Shown here piece by piece: positions 25,284 to 63,713 of a stretch of DNA of 64,000 nucleotides. Under the pieces are notes generated by a model, which worked only from the letters and a program-made list of their open reading frames with translations, ran no database searches and was not told where the DNA came from. The stretch is from Loxodes magnus (Eukaryota > Ciliophora > Karyorelictea > Loxodida > Loxodidae): contig CAMPDV010000201.1 in NCBI GenBank assembly GCA_946699065.1, positions 248,001 through 312,000 of the forward strand, in the 5' to 3' direction. The stretch's first letter is position 1, and every line of letters starts with the position of its first letter. The position numbers were made by a program, and so were the translations under genes.

Positions 25284-25557
25284 GATGATAAATTATAACT
25301 ATGAGATTAATAAAAGATTTATACTTTTGATATTTCTTTATACAATTATAATTATTTTATTGTTTTATAAAGTGAAATAGAATGATAAATGCATATGATG
25401 AAAGTATACAAAAGAATAATTTTCTCCAATAGGTAATTTAAAATAATAAATATGAAATATATGAAAAACAGAGTCTAGCATTATAGTGAACTTATATTAA
25501 AGCATAATTTATTCAATTTAATCAATTTAGTATTAAAAGAAGACTTTTGATAAAAAA

Positions 25558-26325
25558 ATGGCAGAAGGTCTCAAGAAGGGTTTTTTGTAGGCTCCATAGA
25601 TAAAGGAGCAAAAACCAGAGACTTCTAATTCTTCATCTATCACGTCTTCTTTAATAAAAAAATAATCTTCTTAATCTTAATAACCTCCAATAGTTGAAAA
25701 TTCAAGACAATCTTAAATAAAATAAGAACTTAAATAAGCATAATTAGAATAAAACTAATAATAAAATATTGACTTTCTTCTTAAACCTAGACCAAGTAAC
25801 TATAGGAAATAAGAGAATCCAAAAACGATGTAAAAAACAAACAAATGAAGAATAATTATTAATTGAAAGTCTTTTGAAATCTGAGTGTGTATTCTGTAAG
25901 AAGAAGTAAAAATATTAAGATAAGAAAACAAAAAATTATAAGAAAAAAGTTAAAATACTGAAGAAAGATTAGTCAAATAAAAAATCGAAGTAAAGCAACT
26001 TGGACAAAAAAGAATAGAGCCTCTAATCTAAGAAATAAAAATGGAAGTAGAAGACGATAGGTAAAAAGAACCAACCAATATTAGAAGGATTCTCAAGAAA
26101 TGTTACCTGTGCAAATAAAGATTCCATAGATTCAAGAGTTGCAAGATATACAAGAGAAACAGCGAAGAAATCTTAAGAGAATTAACAAGAATTTACGTGA
26201 CGATAGAAGGAAGAATTTACAGAAGAAGAATTTTCCATTCGAGTTCCAGAACTCCGAAAAAACTGGGTGACCTGAACTTTTATTTTAAGCATCCAGGAGC
26301 GATCACTGAATGTCAGTGGAAATGA
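25558..26325 (+). CDS. ORF1p-like protein: coiled coil + CCHC zinc knuckle (255 aa)
   Basis: With UAR=Gln and UGA=Trp one frame runs from the ATG at 25558 to TGA 26323..26325. The N-terminus MAEGLKKGFLQAP shares the KKGF motif with three other CK elements. Residues about 30-70 are Ser/Gln-rich. Residues about 115-170 form a heptad-like coiled coil (ILRQENKKLQEKSQNTEE). A perfect CX2CX4HX4C zinc knuckle, CYLCKQRFHRFKSC, follows at about residue 180. After it comes LTRIYVTIEGRIYRRRIF, a motif also seen in three other copies. Proteins of this layout resemble LINE ORF1 (nucleic-acid binding, trimerising). Near the C-terminus related copies prefer another frame (TFILSIQERSLNVSG), so the last 30 residues are uncertain. 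Confidence 0.7.
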
Positions 26326-26347
26326 GGTAGAAATACCTCAAAGCCAC
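26316..26347 (+). other. 3' hairpin with GAAA tetraloop in CK element
   Basis: An outer 4-bp stem (GTGG/CCAC), a symmetric 3-nt internal loop, then a 7-bp stem TGAGGTA/TACCTCA closed by a GAAA loop. It sits 25 bases before the element's 3' end. A hairpin just before the tail is the usual recognition site for LINE-type reverse transcriptases; that role is inferred here. Confidence 0.6.
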
Positions 26348-26551
26348 AAACACTTTAATTAATTATATTATTATTAAAAGATGACTTTCTATAATCTTAT
26401 TTAATTAGAATTATAAATACTTTTAAAATATATTTTATCAAAAATATCTATAAAATATCTGAGCAAATTTTTAAGTTTAATTTATGATAAGTTATATTTG
26501 CTAAAAAGAATAAAGCAGATTATATGAGTTACTTAAATAAATATTATTAAT

Positions 26552-27381
26552 AATAATAATATACTTAAAGTTAGTAGAGTTTTGCATTCTCTGGAATTGC
26601 AACCAGTTCCTGCGGACAGTTTTTTTAACGTGGGTGTGATCCACGACCTTTTTATTAAGTGGAAGGTTACCACTGTAACCGTTCAAGTGGTCTTGCAAAA
26701 AGCTTTTATTTGTAGATCCCTGTTGGAGTTATTCATAGTTTATTGAGTTGTCTCCATGTTCTTTTCTGCTCTTATTCGTTTATTTTCTTTCATTATCAAC
26801 AGTTTTTTAAAATATGTTGATTTGATTTGCAACATCAACAAAGTTTGTATTATTGTCTTTATTTCGTTCTTTTTTATGATAATTTATTTTCTATATTTTC
26901 TAATCTTTTAATGAAACTTGTAGCAATCATTTCTTTTTCTGGATTCAATTCTGTTTTTAATTCTATTGGTATTTTTTCTATTTCCATTTTCGTGTCATAT
27001 TTAAAGTTTTATTGTGACTAAGTTCAGAGTTGTTCTTCCGTTATCAAATTGCTTTGGATGAGCTGTCTTCTGAGTATTAATAATTCGTTGTTTTAATCCT
27101 CTATGCTATTCATTAATTCCCTTATTTTTTCTCCTTAGTTATAAGCTATTTCTTCATACTTTGAAATTAATTTTTACATTTGATCTAGTTAAATTTAAAG
27201 TTTTTAATCAAATTCGTTCTTAGGTTATCTTATCTCTATAGATCCTACCATCACTTTACCTTCTGATTACGAACTTGAGTCCTCTCGTTGCTATTGTTTT
27301 TTTTAAATTTCTTTTGCCGCTTTTCTCTTTAGGTTTCTAAGTTAATTCTTTGAGAGTCGAAGAGATTAATCCATTTTTTTT
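26552..27381 (-). mobile_element. CK element, subfamily A, full length (830 bp)
   Basis: A perfect 16-bp target-site duplication (AATAAATATTATTAAT) lies at 26536..26551 and 27382..27397. On the minus strand the element starts with seven A residues then ATG, and ends in an (ATT)n tail. It pairs with the copy at 30094..30927 over its whole length. The exact duplication suggests a fairly recent insertion. Confidence 0.8.
26562..27374 (-). CDS. ORF1p-like protein, subfamily A (about 270 aa)
   Basis: The frame from the ATG at 27374 stays in register to the tail. It starts MDQSLRLSKNQLRNLKRKAA, has a coiled coil (EIAYNQGEKIRELMNSIED), then a perfect CCHC knuckle CWCCKSNQHILKNC at about residue 195, then RTWRQLNKLWITPTGIYKQK. 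It aligns without gaps over most of its length with the copy at 30100, at roughly half identity and with many synonymous differences. The alignment gives direct code evidence: TGT-TGA-TGT-TGC here against TGT-TGG-TAT-TGC there, and TAA here opposite CAA there. The stop is not assigned; the frame is still open when it enters the (ATT)n tail. Confidence 0.75.
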
Positions 27382-27397
27382 AATAAATATTATTAAT

Positions 27398-30093
27398 TAA
27401 TTAAAACATTCAAATGATTGAGTAAAATTATAGTTTTTATTTAAAATTCATTATTTATTATTATAAAAAAAAATTTTTGACTTGAAGGATTTAAAATTAT
27501 AAAATTGCAAAATTTTTTTAAAATAATATATCCATAAAGTATTTATGAATATTTATTTTTATAAATAAAAAAGCATTTTAATTTCTATGCTTGATTTCAA
27601 TTATTATAAATTTTATTATCGAATAAATTAAGATGCTAAATAACGCTTTGATTACTCACTTAAATAAGACACCCCAATTTATCAATATTCTGATTTTTTC
27701 TAAATTTTATTATTTCTTGAGTTATTAATAAAAGTATTTTTACTTTATTATTAATAATGTTATTTTACACTTTTCAAAAATAGATTTATTTTGGTTCTTA
27801 CAAAGTATAAAATAAAATTTTCCATAAAATCTGCATAGATTAGTTTTCATTAATTGAATTTTCTTCCAATTATTTATGTTAATTTTTTTATTTCTTATAA
27901 AAATGTCTTTAAAAAAAGTAAAAAAACCATTAGAATAAAAGTAGCAATATAAAATTTTAAATAAAATAGAGATTTAATCAAGAAAAAGAATTTAGCAGAA
28001 TTAAATAAAAAAACATCAGAGTTATCTATAAAATGATTCAGCTTAAACTATTAAGAAGTTTTGTTCTGTAGTTTAAAATCTGTTTTTTCTGTTTTCCAAC
28101 AAATTCTTAGTTTTATTTTTCTTATTTAGCAAAATAAAAGCCTTATACAAATAAACTACACTTAGTGAAATCAGCTTATTTTTAAAATTTAATTTCAACC
28201 AATTTACTTATATATTTTCATTGTGAGCAATTCTCTTAACTTACTTTCTTTTTCCTTTTTGATGTTTTCATAATTATTTTTTAATCTCAAAGAAATCTCA
28301 CACTTAATAGTTTTTTACCTATAATAATACAATAAACTCAAAAATAATGATTATATTTTTTAATCTTAATTTATAATGTAGACTTATCATAGTCTTATAT
28401 TTAATGTTGACGATAATAAACATCTTGGTAGTAATAAATTAAAAATAGTAATAACTTAAATTTAATTGTATTAAATAATTTATGTTTTAATTTATTAATC
28501 TTAATATTTTTATATATCATCAAAAGCAAAAATGCTTTAAAAATAATAAAAAACGCTATTTTAAATATAATAGTAAAAATACTAAATATTATTGTAATCT
28601 TAAATAATATGAACCTTTCTTTCTTTTAGATAGGTTGAACCTACTTAATAAGGTGCCAAGATTTATTTCTTTTAAATACAGTTTTATTATTTACTTTTGT
28701 GGATTTCATAGTTAAAGGCTAAGATATTGAAAAAATAAAAGTTTAAAATAATAGAATGCCTAATAGAAAATACAAGTAATTTATTTAACTTGTTATTAGT
28801 CACACTTTTACTCATCTTTTTAAATTTTTCGTGTTTTTCTTATCAAATTTATCTTCTTTAAACTTATTTTTCTCTTTTAAATTGGTACCTTTTTTTAAAC
28901 TAAAAAACAGATAAATCTTACTCAAAACACTTTTTTGTATTTTTTTATTAAAATAAAAAAAGATTATTATAATTTTTTTAAAGACCTTATTTTTCTCCTT
29001 ATTTAATCAATATTTATTCTGATATACTTAAGTGAATTTAACATTTTTATACATAAAATGATTTTAAAAAAGTTATAAGAGCTATTTTCTATTTTAATTT
29101 AACTTCACTAAAAATATCTTTTACTTCAGATTTTTTTAAACTTTTTATTCATAACTTTTTTTCGATTTTATTAGCATTATTTTATTTTGCTTTTATTTTT
29201 TATTTAAATTGTATTTATAAAAAAATTTATATCAGTTTTTACTAGAAATCTACTTATAAACTTTCTTCTCTTTTTTACTTTTTATTCAAAACTTTATTTA
29301 TTTCAACTTCTAGTTACAACATCTTATATTTTACTTTTTGCTTCAATTCTATTTCTAACATATTTCTTTATCTTGTAAACTAGTAATCTATTTTTTTATT
29401 TCTTCTCTTTTTTACTTTTTTCTCAAAACTTTATATTTTTACTTCTGTCATCAAAGATTTATTTTTTATTTAACTTTTTTTTAACTTATTTTTTATCTGT
29501 ATTAACTAATTTTCTTATAAAAAAATTTTGTCCTTAATTCGTACTATTATTTAATTGAATAAGGATTCAAAGGTTTTTTATTTTAAAGCTAAAATATTAT
29601 TATTTTTTCTTCTAATCTTATTACACTTTTTCTTACTATTAAAATTATTTTGTTTACATTTGAAATTGTATGATGATTCATTCTTTTTAGTTCAATGCAT
29701 ATCAGAGATCTATTTTTGCTAGTGCATGAATTGAAAATCCAAATTAATTTTTAAATAAAATTTTAATTTGGAAAAAATATTTTTTCTATTTTCGCTAATT
29801 TATTGCTAATTAAATACAGCTTTTTTTAAGATAATAGTACTTAATTTTATTTTTATTAAAAATTTTGTTTTTTTAGTATTTTTTTTCATAGACGTATAGC
29901 AGATATATTGAGTTTAATTTGGAAAATTTATTAAATTATTTGAATTGAATTTTTTATCAAACTGTGATTCAGTTTTTTTATCTTTTATTTTCTAAGAAAT
30001 AATATTTTGTTTCTTTTAGACTCTCCTCATTTTTGAAGTGCAATTTGTATTTTTATATTCTGAATTTAATTATTATGATTTATATAGTTATTT
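27398..30093. other. AT-rich sequence between the two subfamily A elements
   Basis: T-rich tracts dominate 28780..30000 (for example repeated ACTTTTTATTCAAAAC-like words near 29280 and 29410). No gene or element is supported. Confidence 0.45.
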
Positions 30094-30927
30094 AAAAAAA
30101 TGGAACAGATTATTCGCCTTTCCAAAAACTTAACTAGAAACGCAAAAAGGAAAGCGGCGAAACAATTACTTAAATAACAAAAACTAGAAGAGAAATCGAG
30201 CTCCTCATCAGAAGGTAAAGATATTATAGGAACAGCTCAGAATAATCCAGGTAAGATTGGAGAGAATTCAGAAGTTTTTTTATAGCTCGATTAAATGAAA
30301 AATAAAATTTCTGAGTATCAAGAAATAATTTATAACCAAGGAGAAAAAATCAGAGAATTAATGAACTTCATAGATGATCAAAATAATGAATTGTTAATAA
30401 TTAGACGTCAGTTAATCCAGAATAATTTAGTAATGGAACAATAATTATACTAATAGTCTCAAACGAACCTTAAACAAGATCAAAACATGATCATTGAAAA
30501 GGAATTAATTTAAAAAGATGTTGCAGAAAAACAGAAAAATGAAAATATTGAATAAGATTTAATAAAACGAACAAAGCAGCTTGAAAAAAAAGTATTTTAG
30601 AAAAAACCTATGAAAAGATAAACCAAACAATGTTGGTATTGCAAGTCAAGATGATATTTATTAAAAAATTGTGGTGGCTGAAAATAAATATAATTAAAAG
30701 AACAATTAAGAACGTGAAAGACTCTTAATAGGCTATGAATTACTGAAGCCGGAGTCTATAAAAGAAAAATATTTGCTGGAAACTCGGAAGATTTTTAGTG
30801 GTTACCTCCCACGTAAAAAACTTGGTCGTGGTATCCATCCACGTTAAAAAATGGCAGCAAGAAACTGGTTGAGATTCCAAGTATTGCAAAACTTTTTAAC
30901 TTTAAGTTCATTATTATTATTATTAAA
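30094..30927 (+). mobile_element. CK element, subfamily A, full length
   Basis: The copy is homologous end to end with 26552..27381 in the opposite orientation. It starts at an A-run before the ATG and ends at (ATT)5. The 3' region carries CCACG...CGTGG inverted repeats (about 30808..30830) just ahead of the tail. Both ends share TTAAAAAAAT, a possible short target-site duplication, but this is low-complexity sequence and weak evidence. Confidence 0.7.
30100..30909 (+). CDS. ORF1p-like protein, subfamily A (about 270 aa)
   Basis: The frame begins MEQIIRLSKNLTRNAKRKAA. A Ser-rich stretch (KSSSSSEGK) follows, then a coiled coil (NQGEKIRELMNFIDDQNNEL). The knuckle reads CWYCKSRWYLLKNC, with Tyr where the zinc-binding His should be, so metal binding may be weakened. 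The tail LRTWKTLNRLWITEAGVYKR matches the partner copy, and both end with LV-IP--AKL. The frame stays in register from 30100 to the tail. The protein presumably packages element RNA as LINE ORF1 proteins do; this is inference from layout. Confidence 0.72.
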
Positions 30928-32732: not shown

Positions 32733-35052
32733 TCAATTTTTGATATATCTTCCTTTGTCCTCAGCATTCATCTAGATATTATTCGTAATACAATTCTAAA
32801 ATCTTAATCCATATTCATCATAAACCTTATTCCAATTAATATACTAAATTAGGAAGATTTAAATTCAAACTTACCTAAACCTATTATTAGTTAGTATTAT
32901 TTTAGGAGCCATTCAACAATCTACCTATGTTCCATCTTCGAATCAAGTAATCATTTGATTAGTTGGAATCATACCATAAACATCCATTACTTGATACCAA
33001 CCAATTATTGTCCTTTGATTTTGACAAACTACCCACTGAATCAGTATGACCCATTAGAGTACATACTTATAAACCAGATTAAGTATTCCATATTCTTATA
33101 GTTTTATCAATTGATCCAGATATAATAAACTTGTCGTTAGATGAGAATATAACCGAATACACTGAGCCGGAACATCCCGAAAGAATCTTAATACAAGATA
33201 ATGTCTTGAAGTCCCATAGTCTCACCGTCGTATCATCGCTTCCTGATACGATGAACTCTGAATCACTGGATATAGCCACAGCATATACATAACTTGTGTG
33301 ACCACTCATGGTCTTGCAAGTACCTGTCTTGACGTCCCATATTCTCACTGTCTTATCACTACTTCCCGATACGATGAACTCTGAATCACTGGATATAGCC
33401 ACAGCATTTACAGCACTTCTGTGACCACTCATGGTCTTACAACTACCTGTCTTGACGTCTCATAGTTTAAGAGTTGTATCGCCACATCCTGATACAATGA
33501 ACTCTGAATCACTAGATATAGCCACAGCATATATTGAACTTTTATGACCACTCATGGTCTTACAACTACCTGTCTTGACGTCTCATAGTTTAAGAGTTGT
33601 ATCGCCGCATCCCGATACAATGAACTCTGAATCACTAGATAAAGCCACAGTATTAACATAATTTATGTGATCACTCATGGTCTTACAGGTACCTGTCTTG
33701 ACGTTCCATAGTTTCACCGTATTATCTCTACTTCCTGATACTATGGTGTTACCATCAGAGGAGATAGCTACAGAAGAGACACGACTACTGTGTCCTGTGA
33801 AAATATGAGGATGTTCCGTAATGATGGATGTGAGATTAGAGTTACCAAAGTCGCAGTTAATGAATTTAGTGTTTCTAAGATTCGCTAAAGTGAGATTTGA
33901 GTTGGTGAAGATACATGAGATGAAAGTGGCATCAGATAAGTCAGCATTTGATAAGTCGATGTTCTGGAAGTTTTACTAAGTGAATTAGAAATTCATGTAA
34001 TTCAACAAAGTTATAGCATTGACAGCTGCTAATTACGTTTTTGATTAATTTTAGGCTAGATTTAACACTTGTAATAATTTTTATTACAAGTCTTAGTCAA
34101 TTATTTTAGGTAACTCAAGCAAAATAGAAGATTGTTCTATTAAACCTACTTTATTTAGAACATTCTAACTTAAATTTTAAACTGATAAAGTTTCAGATTT
34201 AAATTCGTTAAGAATCTACTGCAATTTATTAAAATTTAAGTTTCTAAAATCTTAATTAATTTTATTAGAAGCAACTGGCTACACTTGTAGTTATTAAAAT
34301 TCTTAAGAGTGTTTGCTTTTAATTTACTGAATTGCTTACTGATTTTCCTAGAAGTATTATTCAATTAACAAATTTGCAATTTATTTTGTCAGTAATTACC
34401 CATTGAGTTTTTGCTTTAGAAATATAAAGATATTGAAAATCTGCTCCTATACGAAGATTCTTTAATTATCATGATTAACTAAACTTTATACTCTCTTTAT
34501 TTCACTTATTTCATTAAAAATCTGATGAAACTGCTCTTAATTAGCTTATTAGCTTACTTAAACAAATTAATGCTATTAACTGGCTTAAATATCCTAATTT
34601 AATTTGACTATTCGACCTAGCAATTCTTAAACTTGACCGATACTACTTTCATATTAAAATATTTATCTATTTAATAATAATTAAATTGCCTTCCTCAGAA
34701 TTAACTTGAATATTTCTTGATTTTCCTCCAACAATTTTCTTCCAATTTCCTTTTGCAATTATTGCTACTGTTATACTTCATTTAACTCCTTTACTTACTT
34801 ATTGAACTGATTTTACTCATTGTAAATGCTTTACTAAAAATTCATAATTTGCGGTTAATGAATTAAACTTTGTAACTATTCCGGTCTACAATTGTATATT
34901 TACTAATGAATCCTACAAACAACAATTTAAGTGAGTTAAAACACTCTCTGTAAACATTACAGACATGATCGGCAACCACATGGTAGCTACTTCGCTTGAC
35001 GAATACCTTAGTCATAATATATTGTACATTTAGGACACTGGCTATTATTCAT
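32733..35052 (-). CDS. RING-like / coiled-coil / pentapeptide-repeat / WD40 protein (762 aa)
   Basis: The ATG at 35052 starts MNNSQCPKC, a RING-like or related zinc finger (CPKC, then LPCGCRSCLQC, then further Cys/His to about residue 55). Residues about 75-340 are Gln-rich and coiled-coil-like. Residues about 355-405 are pentapeptide repeats (LSNADLSDATF; LTLANLRNTKF). Residues about 415-680 are seven or so WD40 repeats such as AISSDSEFIVSGSDDTT with a WD signature. Two repeats carry TGA exactly where their sisters have TGG (33460..33462 and 33583..33585), so TGA is read as Trp. A 31-nt intron lies near the 3' end, and the spliced length is an exact multiple of three. The end is placed at TGA 32733..32735; another TGA follows nine bases on. 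WD40 propellers are protein-binding platforms. With a RING-like finger, a ubiquitin-ligase adaptor role is possible but inferred. Confidence 0.85.
32844..32874 (-). other. 31-nt spliceosomal intron in the WD40 gene
   Basis: The minus strand starts GTAAGTTTGA and ends CTAATTTAG. Splicing joins ...NNTNQQQVQ to YINWNKVYDEYGLRFQNC, both well composed, whereas reading straight through shifts the frame (31 is 1 mod 3). Ends and size fit the very short introns known in some ciliates. Confidence 0.7.
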
Positions 35053-37300: not shown

Positions 37301-37708
37301 ATTTAAAAAGAAGAAGAGGTATTCTACCAAAGGAATCAGTTCTTTATCTTAAGATTTTTCTTAAAAAAATACTTTTAGTAAATTGTATTTCTTTTTCCAT
37401 TTTTTACTTTATAGTTTACCTTAATAATCACTTAAATATAGTAAGCAACTCTAAGAAAATAATGCTTATTAGTTAATTTCAATATGATTAGATACTCAAA
37501 TTATTTATTGACTAACTATGCTTATAAATGCTCTATTATCAATACTTTATTTACAAAGTTATGTTTTTGCCTTAAATCTAGACTAATATAAAATTGATTT
37601 TAAATAATCCAGTATAAATAAGCTTTTATAATGTGTTTAATTTATAATTAATAAATTATTAAATATAAAAATGGCTTCTGAGGAATAACCTGGAAAGTAA
37701 TAATAGAT

Positions 37709-38611
37709 ATGGATTAATAAAAATCGTTCATTTAAATTTACTTCCTTGAAGCAGAAATCAAAAAAATTTAGACATAATTCTTAGGCTTAATTTACGAATC
37801 AATTATCTACACTATATAGCAACTATAAAATGAAAATCAATTATTAAAAAAAGAAATTAGCACTAAGGCTTCAATGTCGTAAGTTAATTAAGAACTGGAA
37901 AAAACTGAATAAAATTAAAAGAAATTAATAAGTTGAACAATTATGAATAACTCATTTCCCATCACAATCCTAATAAGATCCTTTGGTAATTTAAGAACAG
38001 AATAGAAAAAACTCTTTCGAATCGGAAAAAATTCCAAAAAATTAAAAAATCTGAAAATAGGTTATGGTTCAAAGAATTGTAAAACAAGATGTTTCTAATG
38101 TTAGAAGATTGGGCATTATTTTTAGAAGAAATAAGAACTAAAAACTTAAAGATATGAAACAGTATTATTAAATTATACTGCTCTTAAAGGAAAGATCAAC
38201 AAAAAAAGATATATAGTGGAGATTAATTACTATATATAATTTAAATAGGGTGGAAAGCCCTTTCCTTTGGATGCTGCTTGGAGGCCCAGCAAAGCAACAA
38301 AAAAATTAGCGCAGACGGAGGATAAATCAGAGGAAGAGAAACTAATTACAAGAGAAGGAAGATGTGACAAGCTGGAGAACTCTGAATGCCAGGAGGAAAC
38401 TTTCTTCATCATAGGTCGGGGAAATGTACCCGTAATCGCATATTGCATCCTATGCTTTGGAAGGAAAAATTACAGGGACGTACTGCAGGAAGAGAAAAAA
38501 AGGATAGAGAGAACCATAAAATTTTTTTTCGACATTAAATAAAATAAATTTAAAGAACTGAGCACCATCGAGAGTGCTACGCGCTCTATAATTGAATTTA
38601 TTTATTTATGA
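37709..38611 (+). CDS. ORF1p-like protein, subfamily C (about 300 aa)
   Basis: The frame starts at the internal ATG 37709 (MDQQKSFIQIYFLEAEIKK); the upstream ATG at 37671 is in another frame (MASEEQPGK). A coiled coil (QLQNENQLLKKEIS) is followed by a knuckle CFQCQKIGHYFQKK whose last Cys is Lys. The C-terminal part, PFPLDAAWRPSKATKKLAQT to VIAYCILCFGRKNYRDVL, is the piece conserved in the 7.2-kb copy and has its own C-x2-C. The frame reaches a TGA at 38609..38611 inside the tail. Register was checked at 37709, 38090 and 38267. Confidence 0.65.
38571..38587 (+). other. Subfamily C terminal hairpin
   Basis: AGAGTGC-TAC-GCGCTCT forms a 7-bp stem with one G.U pair and a 3-nt loop, followed by ATAAT and the ATTT-repeat tail. 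The same hairpin is at 7554..7570 and 42695..42711, and on the minus strand, with changes, near 25.25 and 52.53 kb. Confidence 0.55.
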
Positions 38612-38989
38612 ATATTAATTTAATTAAAAAAATTATTTATAAATTTATAGTCAGATTGAGAATTTTTATTTAAGTGGAGAAAAAAAAATTTAATATAATT
38701 ATAAAAGTAAATAAGTAAAAAGGAGAAATAATTTATTTATTTATTTTTGCTTAATAATGTTATAAATTGACTTTTATTTGATTAAAGCAAAGAAGAAAAA
38801 TATCTAAGCTCTTTTCGACTTAATATTAATTAATAACAGTATTAATATTTTCTGAAGGAATTTTTTTTGCTTAATCTCGCTGCGAAGTTAATTTTTAAAC
38901 AAATTAGAACGATTGGACATTAAATCGTTTTAACTGCTTAATTCGTACTTTTAAATCCATAAACCTTTTATTATAATATTTCTATAGAT

Positions 38990-42239: not shown

Positions 42240-42730
42240 CGAAGGTGAACAACAAGGTCATCTTCATCAGAGGTTGGGGAAGTTAAGTACTCATAATCGA
42301 CTTTATGTCTTCCTCTGCTTTGGTTTGGCCTCGAGACATAAGATTCTTAGACCTTCGACGTTGGCTTGACTTGGTTTCGTTTATTTTTAATACTGGAACT
42401 AAAAAGAAATAATATTGCGATCTTCATCAGAGGTGGGGAATTTAAGTACCCATAATTGACACATGTCGTCCTCTGCTTTGGTGATGCAATGAGACACAAT
42501 CCTGCCATGTCCTTGGACCTCCAAGAAGTAGAAAAGATTACGAGTATTCTAAAATTATATCAGTATTGAACATTTTTATCAGTACTGAATAATTATACCA
42601 GTATTGAACAAGGTCTACCAGTATTTGATAAATTTATCAGTAGCAAACATTCTTGTCAGTATGAAACATTTTTTTAAAGAGCTGCACACCAATGAGAGTG
42701 CTACGCGCTCTATAATCAAATTTATTATTA
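42240..42730 (+). mobile_element. Subfamily C-related element with internal duplications
   Basis: Two copies of a segment (42261..42356 and 42421..42521) begin TCTTCATCAGAGG and contain CCTCTGCTTTGG. Both match the part of the 38-kb element around TCTTCATCATAGGTCGGGG. They are followed by a six-unit 19-bp tandem repeat and then the subfamily C terminal hairpin (42695..42711). No intact protein is visible. The start is approximate. Confidence 0.55.
42561..42675 (+). repeat. Six-unit tandem repeat, 19-20 bp period
   Basis: Units begin with CAGTA or CAGTATTGAACA-like sequence at 42561, 42580, 42599, 42619, 42638 and 42657, a period of 19, 19, 20, 19 and 19 bases. The array lies inside the element at 42240..42730, just before its 3' hairpin. 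Units diverge toward the right end. Confidence 0.7.
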
Positions 42731-42829
42731 TTATTTAAAATAGAATAACTAGTTATACTTAGAAGACATATAGATAATCTAGTTTAGTTTATAAGAATAA
42801 GCTAAATTTTATTTTATTATATATTTAGT

Positions 42830-46346: not shown

Positions 46347-46362
46347 TAATTTTTTATATAAA

Positions 46363-47258
46363 CAAGTATGGAAAAATTATTCTCAGAGGTTTTCTAGTAG
46401 ATTCGAAAAGCTGTAGTTAACAACATACTCGAAAGACTAGGACTATGAAAAGGGAAATGGAAATGGAAAGAATGTCAATTATGCAGGAATTTTCGCCTTT
46501 TAAAAGAGGACTAGAGAATAGGCTAAGAATATTTCTCACTTGGAAATCTCTGTGGAAATGCAAAAAAACTATGAATAGGTTATTAAAGTAGTTCAAAATA
46601 TCCAGAAGAGATTAAAATTCTAAATGAAAATCTAACGAATAAACTAGAATTAGCAAATTAAATTAAATCTAGACTAATTTACTAAGAAAGGGAATTTTTC
46701 GCATTCTAAAACATATCATAAAACTAAAACAATTAATTTTAGAAACTGCGATAAGAATAAAAGGAGCTTATCAAGAAAATAAACGAAATAATGGAAATTT
46801 AAGAAAGCAGCAACAGTAAACTGATCATAATGAGCAAAGAATTGATATAATGGTAATAGAGGACGATAAGGTTTGGCTACCAAGTCAAATAAAATAACTA
46901 AAAAAGCTATTACTCCAAATCAGGAGCTCATCTTTGAAGAAGATGTAAGTAATTTATTAACTTAGAATAAGAATATTGAAAGAAGCAATGGTAGAAACAA
47001 GAAAAAAATGAAAAAGTAGTAATAAAAAAATAAGAAAAGAGAGAGAAATATGATAATTTGAAACACTAGGGAAAATTTACAAAAAAAAAACTGACGGAGG
47101 AACGAAAAATGTTAAGAGGTGTATACAAGACAGGTAAGGAGAAAATAAGAATATTTAAACTTTTAATTTAAGCTTCTGGAGCAATCTGGATGTCAGCGGG
47201 AAAGAATTTGAAAATTTTCCAAGAACACTACATATTTATTATCTATCTACTATCTATC
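46363..47258 (+). mobile_element. CK element, subfamily B, full length, decayed (896 bp)
   Basis: A perfect 16-bp target-site duplication (TAATTTTTTATATAAA) lies at 46347..46362 and 47259..47274. The ATG is at 46368, five bases inside. The protein starts MEKLFSEVFQQIRKAV and has a coiled coil (KSRLIYQEREFFAFQNISQ) nearly identical to part of the 5.1-kb copy. The knuckle position reads SYYSKSGAHLWRRC, with Ser in place of the first two Cys. Reading needs more than one frame, so this copy is decayed although its duplication is intact. Its tail is (TATC)n rather than (ATT)n. Confidence 0.72.
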
Positions 47259-47274
47259 TAATTTTTTATATAAA

Positions 47275-49102: not shown

Positions 49103-50095
49103 AAAAATGGCACACTGCTCTAGAAAGGGCTTTTTTGATACTTCATAATAGTAGGAGAAAAAGCAAGAAATGCTATCTCTCGACAGCATGTCTAATCTTA
49201 AATCGACTCAGTTTTCTTCTAAAGCCCTTGAAAAGATTGTTGAAGGAGCTAAGCAAGGCAAATATCCCTCAACTTTGTATCAAAGGGGATAAATTAAAAA
49301 GACCAAATTAGAACTTATAAAAAGGCATACACCGGGAACATCAATGTCAGAAGAAAAGTCGTACAAGCGATAGGAAATTGTCATACACTAGGAAATAAGA
49401 ACTTTCGGTTTTGAAATGAGAAGTCAATATAACTTAACTTGCATTAATGGTCGTTAAACTTCTAGAAGAGGTACAGAAACTCAAATATCTAAGCCAGAAG
49501 TTCACAGAAAAGCTGGAAGAGAAAAATAAGTAGGATGCATCCAGAATTGAGAACTACGAACTCTAGATAGATGTATTCAGCAACATTTAGAACTACCAAA
49601 ATCGCTTCACAACCCACCTGAACGAGCGCGTGAGCAAACAGGAATTAAAGCAACATTAATTAAAGCTAAAACTAAATTAAAATAAAAAGAAATATTACCA
49701 AGGATGAAAATCTAAATAGCAAACTTAGGAAGAAAAAATGATAAAGATAAGGAAGAGAAGTTTTTGCTACGGAAGCACGCGAAATCTGTACCGGAAATGT
49801 TAGAAATTTAAGCAGAAGTAACAAAACTATTGGATTCAAGAAAAAAAGAGGATAAAACAAGATTAAGATTGACAGAATAGAATATATGCAGCCTGAATAA
49901 ATCAATTTATAAATTCAATAAAAATGAAAATAATCAAAGACCACAGGCGAAAAGAAGAAAAACCTGGAGTAATCCGAATTATCAGGCTCGCCAAAATTGG
50001 AAGACCCAAATTTTTAGATTAAATAGCAGGAAGCATGAACTGCTGTTCTCCGGATGGGATTGATATTTCCTATCGGAAGTTTATTTATGTAATTA
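49103..50095 (+). mobile_element. CK element, subfamily B-like, GC-richer copy
   Basis: It starts GTAAAAATGG; the ATG at 49107 gives MAHCSRKGFFDTSQQQEKKQ, with the KKGF-type N-terminus. A coiled coil in another frame (VVKLLEEVQKLKYLSQKFTE) ends near SFCYGSTRNLYRKC, a decayed zinc knuckle. The 3' end is AT-rich with no clear repeat tail or target-site duplication. GC content is higher than in the other copies. Several frames are needed, so it is decayed. Confidence 0.5.
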
Positions 50096-51639
50096 AAAAA
50101 TAATAACTTTCTATAACATTGCTTGAATTTTTTATTTTAACATAAATCAAACATAAAAGAATCAGAATTTTTACTTAAAAAAAATTTTTAAACCAAATTT
50201 CTCTAAAGTTAAGCAAAGCAATTCTTGAAAGAGTGTAATATCATTTTATAAAACAATTATTTAGTAAGAACTAAATCATTTGTATATATTAAAGTTAGAA
50301 TATTACAAATCACTTTTTCTAGTTAAAAAAGATATTTTCTGCGCAGATTATAGTTAATTTTATTTTTTAATTTTAAACTTACATAAGCTCCTATATTTAC
50401 CATTATTCGCATGAAATATAACAATAAGTAGTGCAATTATGTCCAATACTCAAAGCATTTAAACTTTTTTTATCTTATTATTATTATTTTTTAATTAGAT
50501 TTATTTAAATCTCTTATGCTTTTATTCCTTTTTTGTACCTTAATCTTTATTTTAATGCTTTTTAATAAATAAATAAAATAAAATAATTTTGATATTTAAT
50601 TATTTTTAGGTATATTTGAAATGCTAATATTTCAAATTATAAATATTACAAGAATGCTCAATATAAAGGTTTTATTATCTTTCAGCGACTTCTTTTTTTC
50701 TAACCTTTGTCTTGTTTTAACTTGTCCAGTGAATTCTTTAAAGTAAAATCTTGCTTTTTAATTTTTAAAGGCAGTTTTGATATACTTAAATAAGATATTT
50801 TGATATATTCATCGAATTTCGGCATTTACTCCTTAGAAAAATTCTTACATATATAAATTAAATCTTTTAAGATAATTTATTTTAGCCTCCTCTCCAAATT
50901 TCAAATTTTAAATATCAAAAAGAAAAATGAAGTTAATTTCTAAAAATTGGCGATTACATCCAGTAATTTTGAAAATGTCTTCTCTTGAACTAAAGAACAT
51001 CTTAGGATTCCAATAATCCGCTATTCTTATTTATAATTTACATTTGCAGTTAAAACTTTTTACATCTAAAGCTATTTTTAAAACTATTATATATGCAATC
51101 ATAAAATTGTTTCCAATATTCTAACTCTGACTAATTTGGTCATATTTAAATTAGGTCTTTTTTAATTATTTTTTTTCTTTTCATAAAATTAGTTTCTTCA
51201 CCAGTATCTTTTATAATGATGCTGTTTTTGCATATAAGCCAGAATATTTTCTTCTTATAATTTATAATAATTCATTTATTTCTATATCCAAAGGTATAAT
51301 TCCCTTTTATCCATTTATTATTTAAATAATTTCTTATTATAGTTCTTGTTTTTCCTAAAACTTTTTTATTTGATATTTTAACTAAGAAAACTAAAATTAA
51401 AAATTTGAAGGATTAACTAAACCATTTTCCGATTCTTCTAGTTTATATGCTATTTACGACTATATGTTTATAATTGCTTTCTCTATAGATGGAAATTATA
51501 GCTAGTTCTTTGCCTATTTTTCTAGTATGCATTCGAATTTTTCAATCTTTAATCTTTATTTTTTAATTCCTTTAGTAGACTCAATTTTCTTTAGTGTACT
51601 GATAAAGCAAAAGATTGTTCTTTAAGGTGATTATTCATA
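50096..51639. other. Intergenic stretch, possibly remnant coding
   Basis: Minus-strand composition is slightly protein-like in 50690..50820 and 51290..51560, but no motif or consistent frame was found. Confidence 0.3.
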
Positions 51640-52415
51640 AAAGAATGGCACCTAAATGACAAATTATCTAAAACCAATCTTCTAACTAACAATAAGATAC
51701 CTTGATTGAGGTTTATTCGCTATAATCAGAAAATAAAAAGCAGTAGGAAGCAGTGCAAAAATTAGTTCTGCAAATAAGCAGTCTAAATTTAAAAATTAAC
51801 TAACTTTAAAACTAAAGTAATAGTAAATACAGAATTGAGTTTTAAAGTGTCTTCATATCTATCTAATCAAGAAATTAAAAGAGCAGAAGAAAAAATATAA
51901 GAAATTAGCAGTCTCAAATAAATAAACTAAAAGCAAGTTAAGAGTAAAGATATGCTTGATTTAATGGAGATTGAGCAATCAAATTTAAATATTAATTAAG
52001 TAACAAAAGAAGACTAATGTAGGGCACAAAATATTAAAAAGTTGTAGATGCAAAAAATTTCGAAGTTGCGATAATAAAAATTTTGATAAAGCCTAACAAG
52101 ATTTATTGTACATCTGAAGATGATCTGCATAGGAAAAAATGATTGGATATGCTTAGTCAATTTAACAAATAGTAGATACACAAAAAAAGAAGAATGAAGC
52201 AAATGTTTGGAAAGGACTGAGATTGGAACAAAATAACAATAGTAAAGAAAGACCAGATTAGCAGCCATAGTTAAGTTATAAAAGAATATGAATCTAGATA
52301 AGAAATAGACGATTTCATTGAGTTTTGCAATGATTCTTGAAACTTATTATAAACTAATACGTGACAAACCAAATAAAGGCGACATCACATAATAAATTAT
52401 TATTATTACAGTTAT
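51640..52415 (+). mobile_element. CK element, singleton
   Basis: The ATG at 51645 gives MAPKWQIIQNQSSNQQQDTL, then coiled coil (LQSENKKQQEAVQKLVLQIS) continuing in a neighbouring frame (NQEIKRAEEKIQEISSLKQI). A Cys/His remnant (IYCTSEDDLHRKKW) marks the knuckle region. The element ends ACATAATAA then (ATT)n. The flanks share TTATTCA-like sequence that may be an eroded duplication. Confidence 0.5.
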
Positions 52416-52522
52416 TCAATTAAATTAGATTATTATTTTTATTTTTAAGTTTTTCATTGAGGAAGGTGTTTAATTCTTATGTGTAATTTTATTTATAAAT
52501 AAAATTGTCATAAAAAAACTTA

Positions 52523-52840
52523 GATTATAGAGCATGTAGCACCTCATTTGCACGTAGTTTTTTTAAATTTTTTAGTAGTCTTATTAATTTTAAAGAGGCC
52601 TTCTCAATTCAAGCCTTGCCGCTGAACAGCTATACTTTTATATAGTTGTTGTTGAAATATTAAAAAAAAAAACCTTAAGTCTCTAGCATATTTAATTCTA
52701 TTCTAATTCGATATTCTAAGTCCAGAATTCTCTCTTTGCTCCTGCTAATATTCTTTCTCTGTTCTTCACCACAGGATTCTTCCTGGTATCAGAGGTTTTT
52801 GCTCATAGTTGAAAATTGCTCCTCCCTATTTAAATTAGCA
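52523..52840 (-). mobile_element. Subfamily C-like 3' fragment
   Basis: On the minus strand it begins TTTAAATAGGGAGGAGC, matching the start of the conserved 3' part at 38.24 kb, and ends in the terminal motif (TGCTACATGCTCTATAATC). The middle is more diverged and AT-rich. It lies just past the tail of the element at 51.6-52.4 kb, in the opposite direction. Confidence 0.5.
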
Positions 52841-58399: not shown

Positions 58400-60060
58400 A
58401 ATTTTAATAAAGCTTTGCTTTTCATGGTCTTACAGCCATCTCAAGTTTTCCATTTTTTAAATAAGTTGGATTTTTCTGCCTTTTTAATGTAGATGATTGC
58501 TCTCTTTTTGTGAAAGGACTCTTCTGTCATAATTTTTTTGGGTTTTATTGCTATTTATTCACAGATATGTAAATTCTCTTCAGATTCTTTGATCCCTTTA
58601 TTTTTAGTCCTTTAAATCAAAGCAATATTTTATTAAATGTTGGAAAAATTCCAATATAAAGATCTCAGTTACTTTTATGTCTTTCTTTGATTTTGAATGA
58701 ATAAAGTTCTCGTGCTTTTCTGATCTTATAGTTATCTCAGTTCTTTAATTTTCTATTTAATCATAGCCGATAGAACAATCTAAAAACATTGAATCTTTTC
58801 TTTTTTCCTCTGTTCGAATCAAAAATAATGCATTTCATGCTAAATTTAGCACATAGATAACCACCAACTAACTTTCTTTAAAGAAATTTGTGTTCTTTAT
58901 CACTTTATTGCAATTTTTCTCAAAGAGAGATGGATAGGATTGGAGCGATGTAACGGAAGAATGCCATCATACAAACTTATCCCAGTCTGCTCAAACAATT
59001 TATGTGAGTCGACGGTTTAAAATCTATCTAAGCTTAGGACTAATACTTATTAACATTCTGCCGCCAACTTTTCGATCTAATTTTATGGAGTGCATGAGTT
59101 GATGAAATCAGCACGTATATGAAAATTCCTTCTTCTTTGATTTAAAGCAATAAGCAAATATTGAAAAGTTATTACCCATCTATACATCTACTTGAACAAA
59201 AGCTTTTTCCAATTGGGTTTTTCTTTTATTAAACTGGAGAGAAGTTTCCAGATAAGAATTTACTTTCTTGAGTATCTATGGCCTCTTTTTTTGCTTAGTA
59301 ATCTTATTTTAAAGTGAAGTATTAAATATATTTTGATTAATGGTAAGTTTAATAGCAAATTATAAACTATAAACTATAATAGGATTAATTTTTGTTCTCC
59401 TTTTGAAATTAATTCTATCCATTGACCTTTCCACTCTATAATTGATAGGGTTAATCGATTCGATTCTTTTTTATTTGATCTAGAATTGATTTGAATTTTT
59501 ATATTTTTTTACTTAAGTTAATATTTTAAAGTATATTCTGTATTATTTTTTTAATATTGTTATTTTACTCCTAAATTTATAGCATTTAGTTAAATAATTT
59601 CAATTTTTATAATAGTTTCACTTCTTTAAATATGTTCAGTCTGTCATGCAATTTTTCCTTTTCCTCTTTTATAGTTCGCTCATGAGTTCTTAAGTTTGTC
59701 TTCTCTTAAATATCTTCAAAGATAAATTTAGATTTTACTTTTTAATGCTCCTTCAATTTTTCAAACTTAAATGTTTATATTATAATTTATTTATCATAAT
59801 TGAAGATAAAAATTTGGTTTTTATCCTCTCTTCACAAAATTGTCTAATATTCAATCCAATTTATTGATAAATAGAATCATTTTAAATTCCATTTTAATTC
59901 CTTTTACCTCTTAATTCTTAGTATTTAATCATCTTAGACTAATTTCTCCTTTTTTTCAGAATCTTAGCTTTTTCATAAATGTCTTTTCAGCCAATTTTTC
60001 ATAATTTGTGAGTTTAATTTCTTTTGCTAATTTTATTTATTTTTAATTATTTATGATTAA
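58400..60060 (-). other. Coding-like region, unidentified
   Basis: On the minus strand 59560..60060 gives coiled-coil-like sequence (KTNLRTHERTIKEEKEKLHD). From 59290 to 58400 it gives LETSLQFNKRKTQLEKAFVQ, then FSYTCWFHQLMHSIKLDRKV and GGRMLISISPKLRQILNRRL, again with TGA at Trp-like places. Composition is protein-like and GC is raised in 58900..59200. No domain was recognised and no boundaries are clear. It could be a larger mobile element or a host gene with short introns. Confidence 0.4.
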
Positions 60061-60184
60061 TACAATAAAACTTGTAACAAAAGTATTAATTTTTAATAAA
60101 AATTAAGAAAACTATAAAAAATAGAAAATAAATAGAAAAACAATATTCATAAAAATTTAAAAGATCTTAAGATTTTGATATTTA

Positions 60185-61128
60185 TATTATTAAGTGTTAA
60201 GCATTTTAGAAGGTCTTTCAACTCCTTTTCTGCCGATCTCCAGTTTGCTTCAGAGGCTATAATTAAAAACTTTTAAGTTTCTAAACTTCTTCTCTCTATC
60301 TTGGTTACTATTACTGTAGTATTCAATTCCTCCATTGCTTCTAGCTCTCTTTTTTTGGTCGATATTTCCAATTGAATTTATGCATAGTCTTTCTCTCACT
60401 CTTTTTAGCTTCATATTTTCATATCTCTTCTTTTTTCTTGCTATTTTTTTGTAATATTCTTTCTTAAAGCTTATAAATTTCTTACCTCAACTTCATATAT
60501 GTATTCTTGAAATTTGGTAATAGTACTTCTTCACTATCTGTTTAAGTTACTTATCTTCTCTTCTTCAATTTCCATTTTTTCACATTATTTTTCTCGTTAA
60601 TCAATTTGCTATTGAAGTTGACTGTGACTTTCTGCCAGTCATACTATTTAATTGTCCAAATATTTCTATTTTAGTTTTAGCTTTAGCTTTAGGATTAATT
60701 GTTATAACTCTATTACATATTCTATAAATATCTTCTCACTTATATAAAACCTTTCTAACTTCTTGTTGTCCTTTTATAGTTATTTCTCTTTAACTAGCTT
60801 TTTACAGCTATTCTATTGGTCAATGGCAAATTCCACGACTTCTTATGTATTACATTCTTAACCTATTTCCTAGCTTTCTCCTAAGTTGAAGATTTCTTAG
60901 CTTAGTGAGGGACTTTTTGGTGTCATTTTTATATCTAATGTGCTCTTCTATACTACTAGGTTGTTCTACTTTGATGCTACAAGGAAATCCTTCTAATTAG
61001 GCAGTTAAAATTAATTTTATTAAAAAGATTTTTATTTTAAATAGAAGGGTAAGAAAAATTGACGCTTCATGCTTCTCGCCTCTTTTAGGTAATAAAGAAG
61101 TCCTTTTTTGAAGATATCCCCCATATTT
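60185..61128 (-). mobile_element. CK element, subfamily B
   Basis: The minus strand starts ATGGGGGATATC at 61124 and ends TTAACACTTAATAATATAA. Its final 70 bases match the 3' ends of the 46.4- and 5.1-kb elements. The duplication is not clear (a possible AATATAAA at both ends). Confidence 0.55.
60200..61124 (-). CDS. ORF1p-like coiled-coil protein (about 300 aa)
   Basis: MGDIFKKGLLYYLKEARSMK carries the KKGF-type N-terminus. Long coiled-coil stretches follow (ESHSQLQQQIDQREKQCEK; QLEISTKKRELEAMEELN). One frame is in register from 61124 to at least 60213. However, the best match to the C-terminus of the 46.4-kb protein (NLKVFNYSLWSKLEIGRK against NIQTFNLSFWSNLDVSGK) is in a different frame. 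So a frame change near 60.3 kb is likely. No intact CCHC knuckle is seen. Confidence 0.5.
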
Positions 61129-61495
61129 TTATATTCTAAAAGATCATATTAAAATTTATTATAAAAGGTAAAGCCAAAAATAAATAAAAACTGATATCTT
61201 TAAAAAGGCTTTTTTATAATATACTAACTTAATTAAAAAAAATTAAACAAATGTATAGCTTGTAAAAACTGTATGAGTAATTTTATTTTGTAAAATTTAG
61301 TATTTTTTAATTAGTAAATAATTTTAAAAGCAAAAAGAATACTAAAAATAAGCATGTTTTAGTAAATTTTAAATAGAATAATTTATACTTTTGTATTATT
61401 TGCAAAAAGTTACATTATTTTTATTGGAAATAGTTCCTTAATTGCCAATAGAAGGAAAAATAATAAAAATTAATGTTAACAAATAAATTAAACTT

Positions 61496-62915
61496 GTGTG
61501 GATCTATCTTTATTAGGCTCACCTAATTAATAAAAGAAACCAAATTTTATTGCTAATAAAAGTCTAGTTATGTTCTAGCTTCACCTGGTCTCTTTGTTCA
61601 TATTTTCCTCTTTTCTCAGTTTTTGAAATCAAAATTAATTACCTTCTTTCTCTAATTTCTTTTTATTCCTTCCGAAGGCAGGTGTTAGAGGTTATATTGA
61701 TCCTTGTGTTGAGTGTCATAGTCTAGTTAAATTCTTCAAATAAAATTATTTCGGAAGAAATATAAAATAAAAGGCATTCGATAAGGCTTTTTTACCACCT
61801 CTTCCTAAGCCAAAAAAAAGAGAGAAAGCAAGATAACGCTTCTTCTAACCTCACGTCTACTTTTAACTAATCCTCTCCTTAATAATGATAGAATAAGTTA
61901 TAAAAAACAACTCATATAGCAATTACACCTACCTCCTAGGAGAAATTGAGGAAGTAAGTGAAGTCCGTATTACACCTGGAAGTCTCATAGTTCAATACTT
62001 CTTAGCCAGATGAGCATGGAATAGCTCATCAAAGTGGTACTAAATCTCAAGGAAGAGATTAATAAGCTCCACAAAGGAGAACACGATGATGAAGGAACTT
62101 ATAAATAATGGAATCCAAGATATGCTGGATTTTAGAATGATTAACTATGAGAGGGAAATCGATTACCTATTTAACTACTGGCGTGAGTAGTTCAACCAGA
62201 TAAACTCATATGTTTAGAAGAGGCAAGAAAAAAATGCTCAGATGGAGAACATACTTCTAAGTTAAAAAAGCTAATTCAGTCAACAAAATTAAGAACAAAT
62301 TATGGAAATTGAAGAACAAGAATCACAAAAAATCTAGATCTGAGGAAAAAGAATTAAGAAAAAATGTTATTACTTAGTAGATAAAGACACTTATATAAAA
62401 ACTGACTGAAATTCCAGAAAAAAAATGAATCTAAGAACAAAAGAACAGAGAGCATCTTTATTGCAACAAGAATGGAGATATTTGCAGAAGGATATTCACT
62501 AAAAATACAAGAGACCAAGAATAACTGGACCAGAGCGAAGAATATAACAAGACATTTACAAGCAAGAAACACCAAATTAATAAATTTATTTTAAACGGCA
62601 GTGATATACTGCGGCAAAAAAAATTTATTAAATTAAAACTAATGAAAATAATTTAAGATTCATTTATATCTTTAGGTGTTTTCCATCTTCCAATCAGATT
62701 TATGACATGTAAAAGCAGAATAATTCTGAGACCTGGACTTCAGTGCTCACTAATCAGATTCTCGTGACAATGAAGAGAACTTCAAGAAAATAAGATTTAT
62801 CACACAAAGGGTACATCCTTACTTATCTACATGGCATCTATTACAAGAGTACTTCTAAGGAAGACTACTGCATCGGATTATTTACTCGGCTGACTAGAGT
62901 CCAGCGTCCATTTTA
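61496..62915 (-). mobile_element. Family F repeat, copy 3, split by a CK element
   Basis: The parts at 62650..62915 and 61496..61760 match copy 1 on either side of 8.82 kb. The minus strand reads KYSCNRCHVDKQGCTLCVIN and ALKSRSQNYSAFTCHKSDWK in the first part, and TCLRKEQKEIRERRQLIL in the second. The four-Cys segment suggests a small zinc finger, and copy 1 has Tyr or other residues at those places. Confidence 0.5.
61760..62645 (+). mobile_element. CK element nested inside family F copy
   Basis: The insertion splits a family F sequence that is continuous at 8.82 kb. The N-terminal frame (GIRQGFFTTSSQAKKKRE) has the KKGF-type motif but no ATG at the expected place. Coiled-coil parts read MSMEQLIKVVLNLKEEINKL and YWREQFNQINSYVQKRQEK in different frames. 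HLYCNKNGDICRRI lies at the knuckle position. Near the 3' end GCAGT-GATAT-ACTGC forms a hairpin, followed by an A-rich end. Edges are approximate; AAAATTATTT and AAAATAATTT may be remains of the target-site duplication. Confidence 0.6.
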
Positions 62916-63109
62916 AAAAGATTATATAATAAAATTTTATTAAAAATTCAAAAGAATATAAAATAAACTTTGAAATATGGTGGATAATATCTGTTGAATG
63001 AATGAATTAATTAATTTACGTGATTTTACCTTTATTTGGTTAATCACAAATCAAAAGTTTAAAGTTAAATAAAAGAGATTTATTTGCTTGTTCTTGTTTA
63101 TTATACGTT

Positions 63110-63713
63110 ATAAGGATTTTTAATCTAGTTTTTAGAGTTTCTTATAGATCAATTTCCATTAATTTCTAATTAAATTCGTTAATTGCATGCTATATGTTTA
63201 GAGCTTCTTTGTTTAGCTGGAGTATTTTTTTCCTGTATAGTTTACCGTCATGAATGTCATAGATCCTGAAAATATTTTCCCATTATCTTTCTACTATTTT
63301 CTTTATTTACATTAGAAATGGAAGTAGCTCCTAACTTCGTGCCCTAATCGCTTGCAGTATCAACATCTCATTATTTTCCAATAGGAAATATAATTTGTTG
63401 TAGGCTGTTGCTCTACATCCATCGGATCATTCATCTACATTTTTTGCAGTAATATGCTTTCAATTAACTCTGCGAATTTATTAAATTTTAATTAAATTAT
63501 TCTATCCTAATAATTCCAAGCTATTTATTTTCTTTTTCTTATGAATTAATCATCAGATCAGATGTTCAATTTTTCTTTCTAGTTCTTGTACAGTTCTAAA
63601 AGTTTAAAATTTTCTAATTACATGACTTGGAGTCCTTATAGTGTTTCTTATTAACCGTAACTTGACTAAGATAATTCCTTTTGAGAAGATATATTTTACT
63701 TGTAATTTTCCAT
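63110..63713 (-). CDS. ORF1p-like protein of a CK element (singleton)
   Basis: The ATG at 63713 gives MENYKQNISSQKELSQSSYG. A Gln/Lys-rich coiled region (NFKLLELYKNQKEKLNIW) leads to the knuckle CWYCKRLGHEVRSY, canonical except that the last Cys is Tyr. The Trp codon in it is TGA. A following stretch in another frame, RIYDIHDGKLYRKKILQL, matches the RIYVTIEGRIYRRRIF motif at 26.2 kb. The flanks TTATATGCTATAA and TTATACGTTATAA (11 of 13) may be the target-site duplication. No repeat tail is seen. Confidence 0.6.

Follow-up and report, generated by a model that had tools for sequence, protein, structure and literature searches.

ORF-only retroelements of Loxodes magnus: short elements with an ORF1-like frame and their candidate LINE partners

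Long interspersed nuclear elements (LINEs) are the usual setting for asking why they retain an ORF1 protein of their own and whether this protein works in cis. HeT-A of Drosophila, which is telomeric, encodes a knuckle-bearing protein of the Gag/ORF1 type but no reverse transcriptase (RT). HAL1 ends in a poly(A)-type L1 tail. In mammals, HAL1 is a non-autonomous element with ORF1p only (PMC5753468). Another closely related system is that of the LINE-tailed short interspersed nuclear elements (SINEs) of the 'stringent' type, whose 3' ends are shared with a partner LINE (PMC3747384). Here, we describe short elements with a single ORF1-like open reading frame (ORF) and no RT in the ciliate Loxodes magnus, found in a window of 64,000 nucleotides (assembly GCA_946699065.1, contig CAMPDV010000201.1, positions 248,001 to 312,000 of the forward strand; "the window" means this whole stretch, and positions are counted from its first letter). 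With a probability of roughly 0.8, these elements are non-autonomous non-long terminal repeat (non-LTR) retroelements that carry one ORF and are copied by LINE machinery.

About 2,700 RVT_1 copies have been reported from Loxodes magnus, along with two full LINE families of 5–6 kb that carry endonuclease (EN) and RT, named rnd-1_family-27 and rnd-1_family-19, and a large unclassified repeat fraction of 366 Mbp of the somatic assembly (PMC11441545). The term ORF1 does not occur in the main text of that paper, and no mention of ORF-only elements was found in it. No description of these Loxodes elements was found in the open-access literature, and a literature search for coding SINEs returned no open-access paper. 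The search space used here was the Loxodes magnus assembly of 705,730,643 bases in 7843 contigs (contigs are labelled C1, C2 and so on, and fetched loci L), and all copy counts include the haplotype and block duplicates that are present in it. Twenty RVT_1 loci of 10 kb each (L009–L028) served as a sample of LINEs. Most belonged to a group termed fam1, while L012 and L027 held fam2 and L013 and L026 held fam3. The RT of L015, with RVT_1 and Exo_endo_phos_2 domains, represents a fourth group, fam4. Elements are named by their position in kb; E1 is 25.6, E2 is 26.6 (minus strand), E3 is 30.1, E4 is a copy in L015, and E5 is 49.1.

Copies, ends and window sites

The elements start with a run of A followed by ATGG. 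The E2 protein search gave at least 150 scored matches, each covering at least 234 of the 235 residues (12,737 candidates before scoring), and the E1 search also gave at least 150, some of them partial (6,068 candidates). Exact 28-mers from the E2 head and 3' end occurred 1148 and 1122 times genome-wide, and the reversed patterns 0 times. Exact E1 heads numbered 261, with a reversed control of 0. Among the matches listed for contigs C1–C45 (99 E2 heads and 94 tails), a head was found 741–808 bp upstream of 72 of the 94 tails, in 53 cases at exactly 792 bp. At this spacing, the copies are complete and too compact to hold an RT, in agreement with the original prediction that none of the elements contains one. 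Four of the 22 orphan E2 tails were fetched; all of them were E2 bodies, and three shared one variant of the 5' part.

Target-site duplications were scored as matches between the 5' and 3' flanks. After removal of the duplicate sites L042 and L043 (the same site as L041), a score of at least 12 was reached at 12 of 15 fetched E1/E2 sites, compared to 6 of 210 swapped-flank pairs, with duplications of 12–19 bp at the passing sites. Chance matches in AT-rich DNA can therefore be rejected as their source. The preferred target, ATT/AA, was read by eye. Duplications of 16–22 bp had been claimed for several window copies; they were detected in four of the seven copies tested, with lengths of 17 bp (25.6), 16 bp (26.6 and 46.4), and 11 bp (63.1).

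Many related copies could also arise by DNA-level duplication of a host multigene family, which would be recognisable by conserved flanks. Some copies do lie in repeated blocks or haplotype pairs, such as the single site represented by L041, L042, and L043, a cluster on contig C985, and part of the 49.1 matches. The latter comprise 40 other rows at 69–76%, of which 31 start at query positions 135–197 and 30 end at 1151–1164. Seventeen rows have identical limits (174–1153), and in at least 8 of their contigs a match to the SINE-like repeat S1 lies 5–9 kb away, so that they are likely parts of a single larger block that is repeated. By eye, however, the 16 fetched E1/E2 loci fall into 14 sites, each with flanks of its own. 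These different flanks, together with the shared ends and the duplications, refute a host family for E1 and E2, and we consider this explanation highly improbable for the elements in general.

The original prediction treated 15–16 window sites as one family of short ORF1p-like retroelements. Nine of the 16 are supported and two are weaker, whereas three are not members and two are unsupported; moreover, there are several families instead of one, and their 3' hairpins fall into two or more unrelated types, among them those termed class A and class B. E1 (25552..26371, plus strand) has its ATGG at 25558, its knuckle at 26101, a class A hairpin at 26324–26339, and an (ATT)n tail; its duplication (17 bp, 1 mismatch) lies at 25531..25547 on the 5' side and at 26372–26388 on the 3' side. 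E2 (26552..27381, minus strand) has its ATGG at 27374, its knuckle at 26840, a class A tail, and a 16 bp duplication (5' copy 27382..27397, 3' copy 26536–26551). E3 (30093..30925, plus strand) is 69% identical to E2 at the DNA level, has the knuckle and tail domain and a class A tail, and lacks a detected duplication; one copy at 90% is present in L028.

The 46.4 element (46363..47258, plus strand) has a class A-like hairpin near 47200, a short-repeat tail, and a 16 bp duplication (46347..46362 and 47259–47274 on the 5' and 3' sides). Its relative 60.2 (60195..61000, minus strand, ends approximate) also has a class A-like hairpin. The two proteins match each other with E 2e-5, and their 3' hairpins are similar. 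E5 (49103..50106, plus strand, about 1 kb) combines a head like that of LINE fam1 and E1 with a class A-like hairpin, and no knuckle was recognised in it. The 51.6 (51632..52408, plus strand) and 63.1 (62995..63720, minus strand) elements carry class B hairpins of the LINE fam2 type, at 52360–52389 and 63019–63048, respectively, and an 11 bp duplication flanks 63.1 (5' copy 63724..63734, 3' copy 62984–62994). There are 39 other scored matches to 63.1 at 86–88%, which run from query 11–25 to 734–757. Long matches to 51.6 run from query 26–69 to 796–825 at 72–76%, the remaining rows being partial; 51.6-like matches are clustered on the single contigs C985 and C45. The protein of 51.6 matches the element in L013 with E 3e-16, as does that of 37.7 with E 3e-7. 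The 37.7 element (37640..38244, plus strand) is ORF-only and decayed, belongs to the L013 type, and is adjoined on its 3' side by an S1 repeat. One independent copy of it was found, and three more take in its flanks.

Possible decayed members, and the weaker cases, are 5.1 (5092..6050, plus strand), with a 45 aa match to 46.4, and 61.8 (61768..62630, plus strand), with a LINE/E1-like head, an acidic motif, and a 3' hairpin seen by eye; the ends of both are approximate. The 7.2 site was rejected because it is an S1 repeat with a LINE fam1 tail, and the 42.2 and 52.5 sites because they carry a LINE fam1 tail. The 10.5 and 42.8 sites show no protein match, and their membership is unsupported.

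The encoded protein and LINE ORF1

TAA, TAG, and TGA all occur inside RT frames of the assembly. When read in the karyorelict code, the proteins of 25.6 (plus), 26.6 (minus), and 30.1 (plus) have a common C-terminal block, consisting of a CX2C...C knuckle followed by an IYRRRIF-type motif. The knuckle form CX2CX4HX4C, which had been proposed as a common layout, is exact at two places in the window and varies by one residue in 30.1 and 63.1. A hidden Markov model (HMM) built from the three copies detected the block in L013, L015, L016, L018, L023, and L028 (E<1e-5), 6 of the 20 LINE loci, which had been fetched solely because they hold an RT. Three of these six as additional seeds brought in L009 (1.9e-14) and weak matches in L019 (0.0024), in 63.1 on the minus strand (7e-4), and in a knuckle/tail-region fragment at 58.6 (58532..58654, minus strand; 4.8e-4) that was absent from the earlier list. 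The window match at 52.1 (plus) was reached only after iteration (0.032).

Against the PDB, a five-member profile matched retroviral nucleocapsid knuckles (best E 9.2e-5) over the knuckle region alone. The AlphaFold model of E2 has a confident helix at residues 54–129, whereas its C-terminal helix and hairpin are of low confidence; the mean predicted local distance difference test score is 63.7. Foldseek with this model gave 0 matches, and Pfam gave none above cut-off for the E proteins. The predicted long helix together with the knuckle suggests that the protein is of the ORF1p type. An acidic motif, M-[EVDI]-[IV]-E, was seen by eye, mostly upstream of the knuckle, in 25.6, 26.6, 30.1, 46.4, 51.6, 60.2, 61.8, 63.1, L013, L018, and L023.

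Between E2 and E3, the ratio of nonsynonymous to synonymous substitution (dN/dS) is 0.256 in frame (bootstrap 0.13–0.41), compared to 0.78 and 1.07 for the remaining sense frames and 0.50–1.27 in antisense. As judged from these substitutions, purifying selection acts on the frame between the two subfamilies. Alternatively, the elements could be SINEs in which the open frame is fortuitous and only the RNA ends matter. Open frames are cheap in this code, the window also holds short LINE-tailed repeats (S1) with no recognised protein, and two E1 copies give a dN/dS of 1.35 (0.80–3.84), as expected of dead copies. Nevertheless, a fortuitous frame is improbable in view of the E2/E3 ratio relative to the other sense frames and the knuckle-tail block retained among proteins that are about 30% identical. 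Other pairs include two E2 copies, with a dN/dS of 0.325 on 7 differences only, and comparisons with E3 of L028 and E4 of L015, copies that appear frame-shifted and whose values of 0.46–0.66 are uninformative.

The ORF1 of LINE fam1 starts with MVSFKKGFYTTSSEQERKPE, which in L010, L016, and L023 is in frame with the main ORF1. Its first 40 nt or so, encoding about 20 aa (MVSFKKGFYTTSS...), recur almost unchanged in the L018 element (MADFKKGFFTTSSEREKKPEA), and a head of this type is recognisable in E1 and 49.1. In the fetched sequence, the 15-mer TCAAGAAGGGTTTTT occurs only in the heads of LINE fam1, E1, and the L018 element, and it is at the same place in E1. After the head, the L018 element (about 1450, minus strand) carries the acidic motif MEIE together with an E-type knuckle; a 15 bp duplication was seen by eye. 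The sharing of about 40 bp of head at the DNA level between LINE fam1 and ORF-only elements may reflect an internal promoter or a trace of recombination.

These heads would fit a HAL1-like origin, in which the elements arose from LINEs by a deletion that removed ORF2 but spared ORF1. Past the head, however, the E domain aligns to LINE ORF1 over the knuckle only, E2 and E3 have no fam1-type head (by eye), and the class A tails differ from that of fam1. We therefore regard HAL1-like descent as rather unlikely. These similarities make it likely that LINEs contributed the 5' end of some elements, whereas an origin of the entire protein from LINE ORF1 is no more than a possibility.

LINE groups, 3' hairpins and neighbouring repeats

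The fam2 LINE of L012 contains Exo_endo_phos (2.9e-13), Exo_endo_phos_2 (2.4e-10), and RVT_1 (1.4e-34) domains, and the zinc knuckle in fam2 ORF1 is sub-threshold (E 0.011). By eye, each LINE group has a 3' hairpin that precedes short repeats or a T-run: one around GCACC...GGTGC in fam1 and fam3, CGTGGT...ACCACG with the loop CCAAATAAAGG in fam2, and CAATATT-CTTA-AATATTG in fam4. The fam4 3' end is visible in 5 of 6 fetched pieces, the exception being L050.

The 11-base fam2 loop, with at most 1 mismatch, was found 22 times in the 329,698 fetched bases that were scanned for loops and hairpins. Seven of these matches lie at 3' ends and define class B: two fam2 LINEs, a fam2-like fragment (8.6), the SINE-like body at 40.9, and the ORF-only elements 63.1, 51.6, and L013. 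The alignment omits the 61.5 LINE fragment as well as the other 15 loop matches (12 in LINE fam1 RT regions and 3 elsewhere). Stems of both classes were picked by eye before pairs were counted. In the seven class B sequences, 91.8% of stem cells pair, 4 of 7 pairs show double changes, and the covariation score was reached by 3 of 500 shuffles. Genome-wide, the pattern GTGN5CCAAATAAAGGN6CAC occurs 861 times (control 0). From 100 listed matches among the 861, 41 distinct forms were obtained. Two free pairs covary in this set, with 79.3% paired and 27 double-changed cells (0 of 500 shuffles for both); the covariation score was also reached by 0 of 500 shuffles, and pairing fails in 9 and 8 forms at the two positions. 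Among the matches listed, at least four lie inside 63.1 or 51.6 copies (C10:1755165, C11:116955, C50:383740; C26:162611) and one is the LINE in L027.

Class A comprises eleven 3' ends with the loop TTGAAA or one near it, namely E1 of 25.6 and of L039, E2, E3 and its L028 copy, E4 of L015, 46.4, 49.1, 60.2, L027b, and L030b. Six of the nine supported window elements carry it. In this class, 90.9% of cells pair, all 4 of 4 pairs are double-changed (17 of 500 shuffles), and the covariation score was reached by 0 of 500 shuffles. The original prediction envisaged a longer relative with EN and RT and the same 3' hairpin. For class B, this is LINE fam2, which shares its hairpin with 51.6, 63.1, and L013; for class A, none was found among the four LINE groups. 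A scan of the fetched sequence for a hairpin plus (ATT)n led nowhere. The class A helper may be a lower-copy LINE or an extinct LINE, or recognition may be relaxed. A third type of 3' end, GGCTTTAACAAAGC, was seen by eye in the L023, L016, and L009 elements and perhaps at 58.6 (minus) in the window, and its internal hairpin resembles that of LINE fam1.

Several other repeats lie near the elements. S1 is a SINE-like repeat of about 390 bp with the LINE fam1 3' hairpin and tail, and is not a member of the ORF-only elements. It occurs at 7213..7600 and 38226..38616 (both plus strand), with minus-strand tails also at 25233–25281 and 52510–52572, and it has 36 further scored matches at 89–94%, some in repeated blocks. 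A LINE fam1 3' tail (hairpin plus short repeats) lies at 42662..42741 (plus strand). A second SINE-like body adjoins LINE fam2 3' ends at 8554–8938 (minus), 61481–61752 (minus), 62660–62942, and 40912–41179 (minus), the last with a fam2-type hairpin at its end. Remnants of fam4 are present in L021, L045, and the window, at 50562–50888 (minus) and 63590–64000 (plus), and the fam4 search gave 12,638 candidates. A fam1-like ORF2 end comes after a fam4-like piece in L045. RT matches on contigs C5131 and C20 form a tandem array with periods of 2,532 (and 2,504) bp. WD40 repeat genes at 33202–33745 and 36725–37201 (minus) have units of 123 and 126 bp with 85–86% DNA identity.

Proposed propagation and known systems

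Dispersed copies, shared ends, target-site duplications, selection on the frame, and the lack of an RT in the body together support the existence of short retroelements with only an ORF1-like protein, as originally proposed, although with a reduced list of sites. A full copy (0.7–1 kb) would act as a messenger-RNA-like unit with almost no 5' leader, a run of A and then ATGG. Its one frame, of roughly 235–260 codons in well-preserved copies, would provide a protein with a long helix, a zinc knuckle, and a conserved R/K-rich C-terminal tail, and its 3' part an RNA hairpin and short-repeat tail. The element RNA would be translated, and the protein may bind its own RNA in cis. A LINE-encoded endonuclease/RT would then recognise the 3' hairpin and copy the RNA where an ATT/AA-like site is nicked, which would leave the duplications. 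Elements of the 51.6/63.1 kind would ride on the LINE fam2 hairpin, whereas those of the 25.6/26.6/30.1 kind would use a different hairpin, for which no LINE was found among the four groups. RNA binding, cis action, the use of LINE machinery, and the target preference are all inferred from sequence features.

Several observations weigh against copying by LINE machinery as set out here. Duplications scoring at least 12 were missing at 3 of the 15 E1/E2 sites, and the window search found none for 30.1, 49.1, and 51.6. Of 18 LINE loci tried, ten copies with both ends located (6 fam1, 2 fam2, 2 fam3) were scored, and their best scores were 7–11, with a control 95% point of 11. These ten LINE copies, fam2 included, thus have no duplication above the control whereas the short elements do, a difference that one enzyme serving both would not account for. 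The selection estimate comes from one pair with a dS of 1.45, near saturation. The E domain compared to two LINE ORF1 knuckle regions gives an hhalign probability of 1.5%, with an alignment confined to the knuckle. Pair types were not above shuffles in the 41 class B forms (364 of 500) or in class A (152 of 500), nor were double-changed pairs in the class B forms (378 of 500), and the shuffle controls do not preserve relatedness. By eye, the class A hairpin is in none of the four LINE groups, and the four of 22 orphan E2 tails fetched in search of a class A LINE were all E2 variants.

As non-autonomous retroelements, these elements look, from their sequences, like LINE parasites that bring their own helper protein. 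More tentatively, they may form a superfamily of coding retro-parasites in which the helper protein is largely the elements' own and not the ORF1 of the partner LINE; lineages would have exchanged 3' hairpins to use different LINEs, with protein and tail evolving as separate modules. Elements represented by more than 1000 exact heads keep an ORF1-type protein alone, beside LINEs with and without the same hairpin. This is a natural experiment that separates protein function from RT recruitment. The elements may also make up part of the unclassified repeats reported for Loxodes magnus (PMC11441545).

Compared with known systems, the elements have the broad features of non-LTR retroelements, namely target-site duplications, dispersed copies, and a short-repeat 3' tail, and they lack the RT inside the element that marks an autonomous LINE. 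In this they differ from rnd-1_family-27 and -19, which are full LINEs of the same genome (PMC11441545). Features of non-coding SINEs headed by RNA polymerase III promoters are likewise absent: the frame is selected, and Rfam gave 0 matches in the window at E<=0.5, S1 included. Unlike the telomeric HeT-A, the Loxodes elements are dispersed and have target-site duplications. They resemble HAL1 in being non-autonomous with ORF1p only and no RT (PMC5753468). However, HAL1 is an L1 derivative, whereas the Loxodes protein is recognisably LINE-like only in the short N-terminal head of some elements, and instead of a poly(A)-type tail these end in a hairpin plus (ATT)n or other short repeats. The tail thus rules out an assignment to HAL1, and on descent such an assignment is uncertain. 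As in LINE-tailed SINEs, a 3' hairpin with compensatory changes and a short-repeat tail are shared with a partner LINE (PMC3747384), although in Loxodes this applies to class B only (fam2 with 51.6, 63.1, and L013). The LINE-tailed SINEs described there are non-coding (PMC3747384), whereas the Loxodes elements have a selected frame in a 0.7–1 kb body. Their anatomy therefore points to ORF-only retroelements that form a large and in part young set and may work like HAL1 and LINE-tailed SINEs combined.

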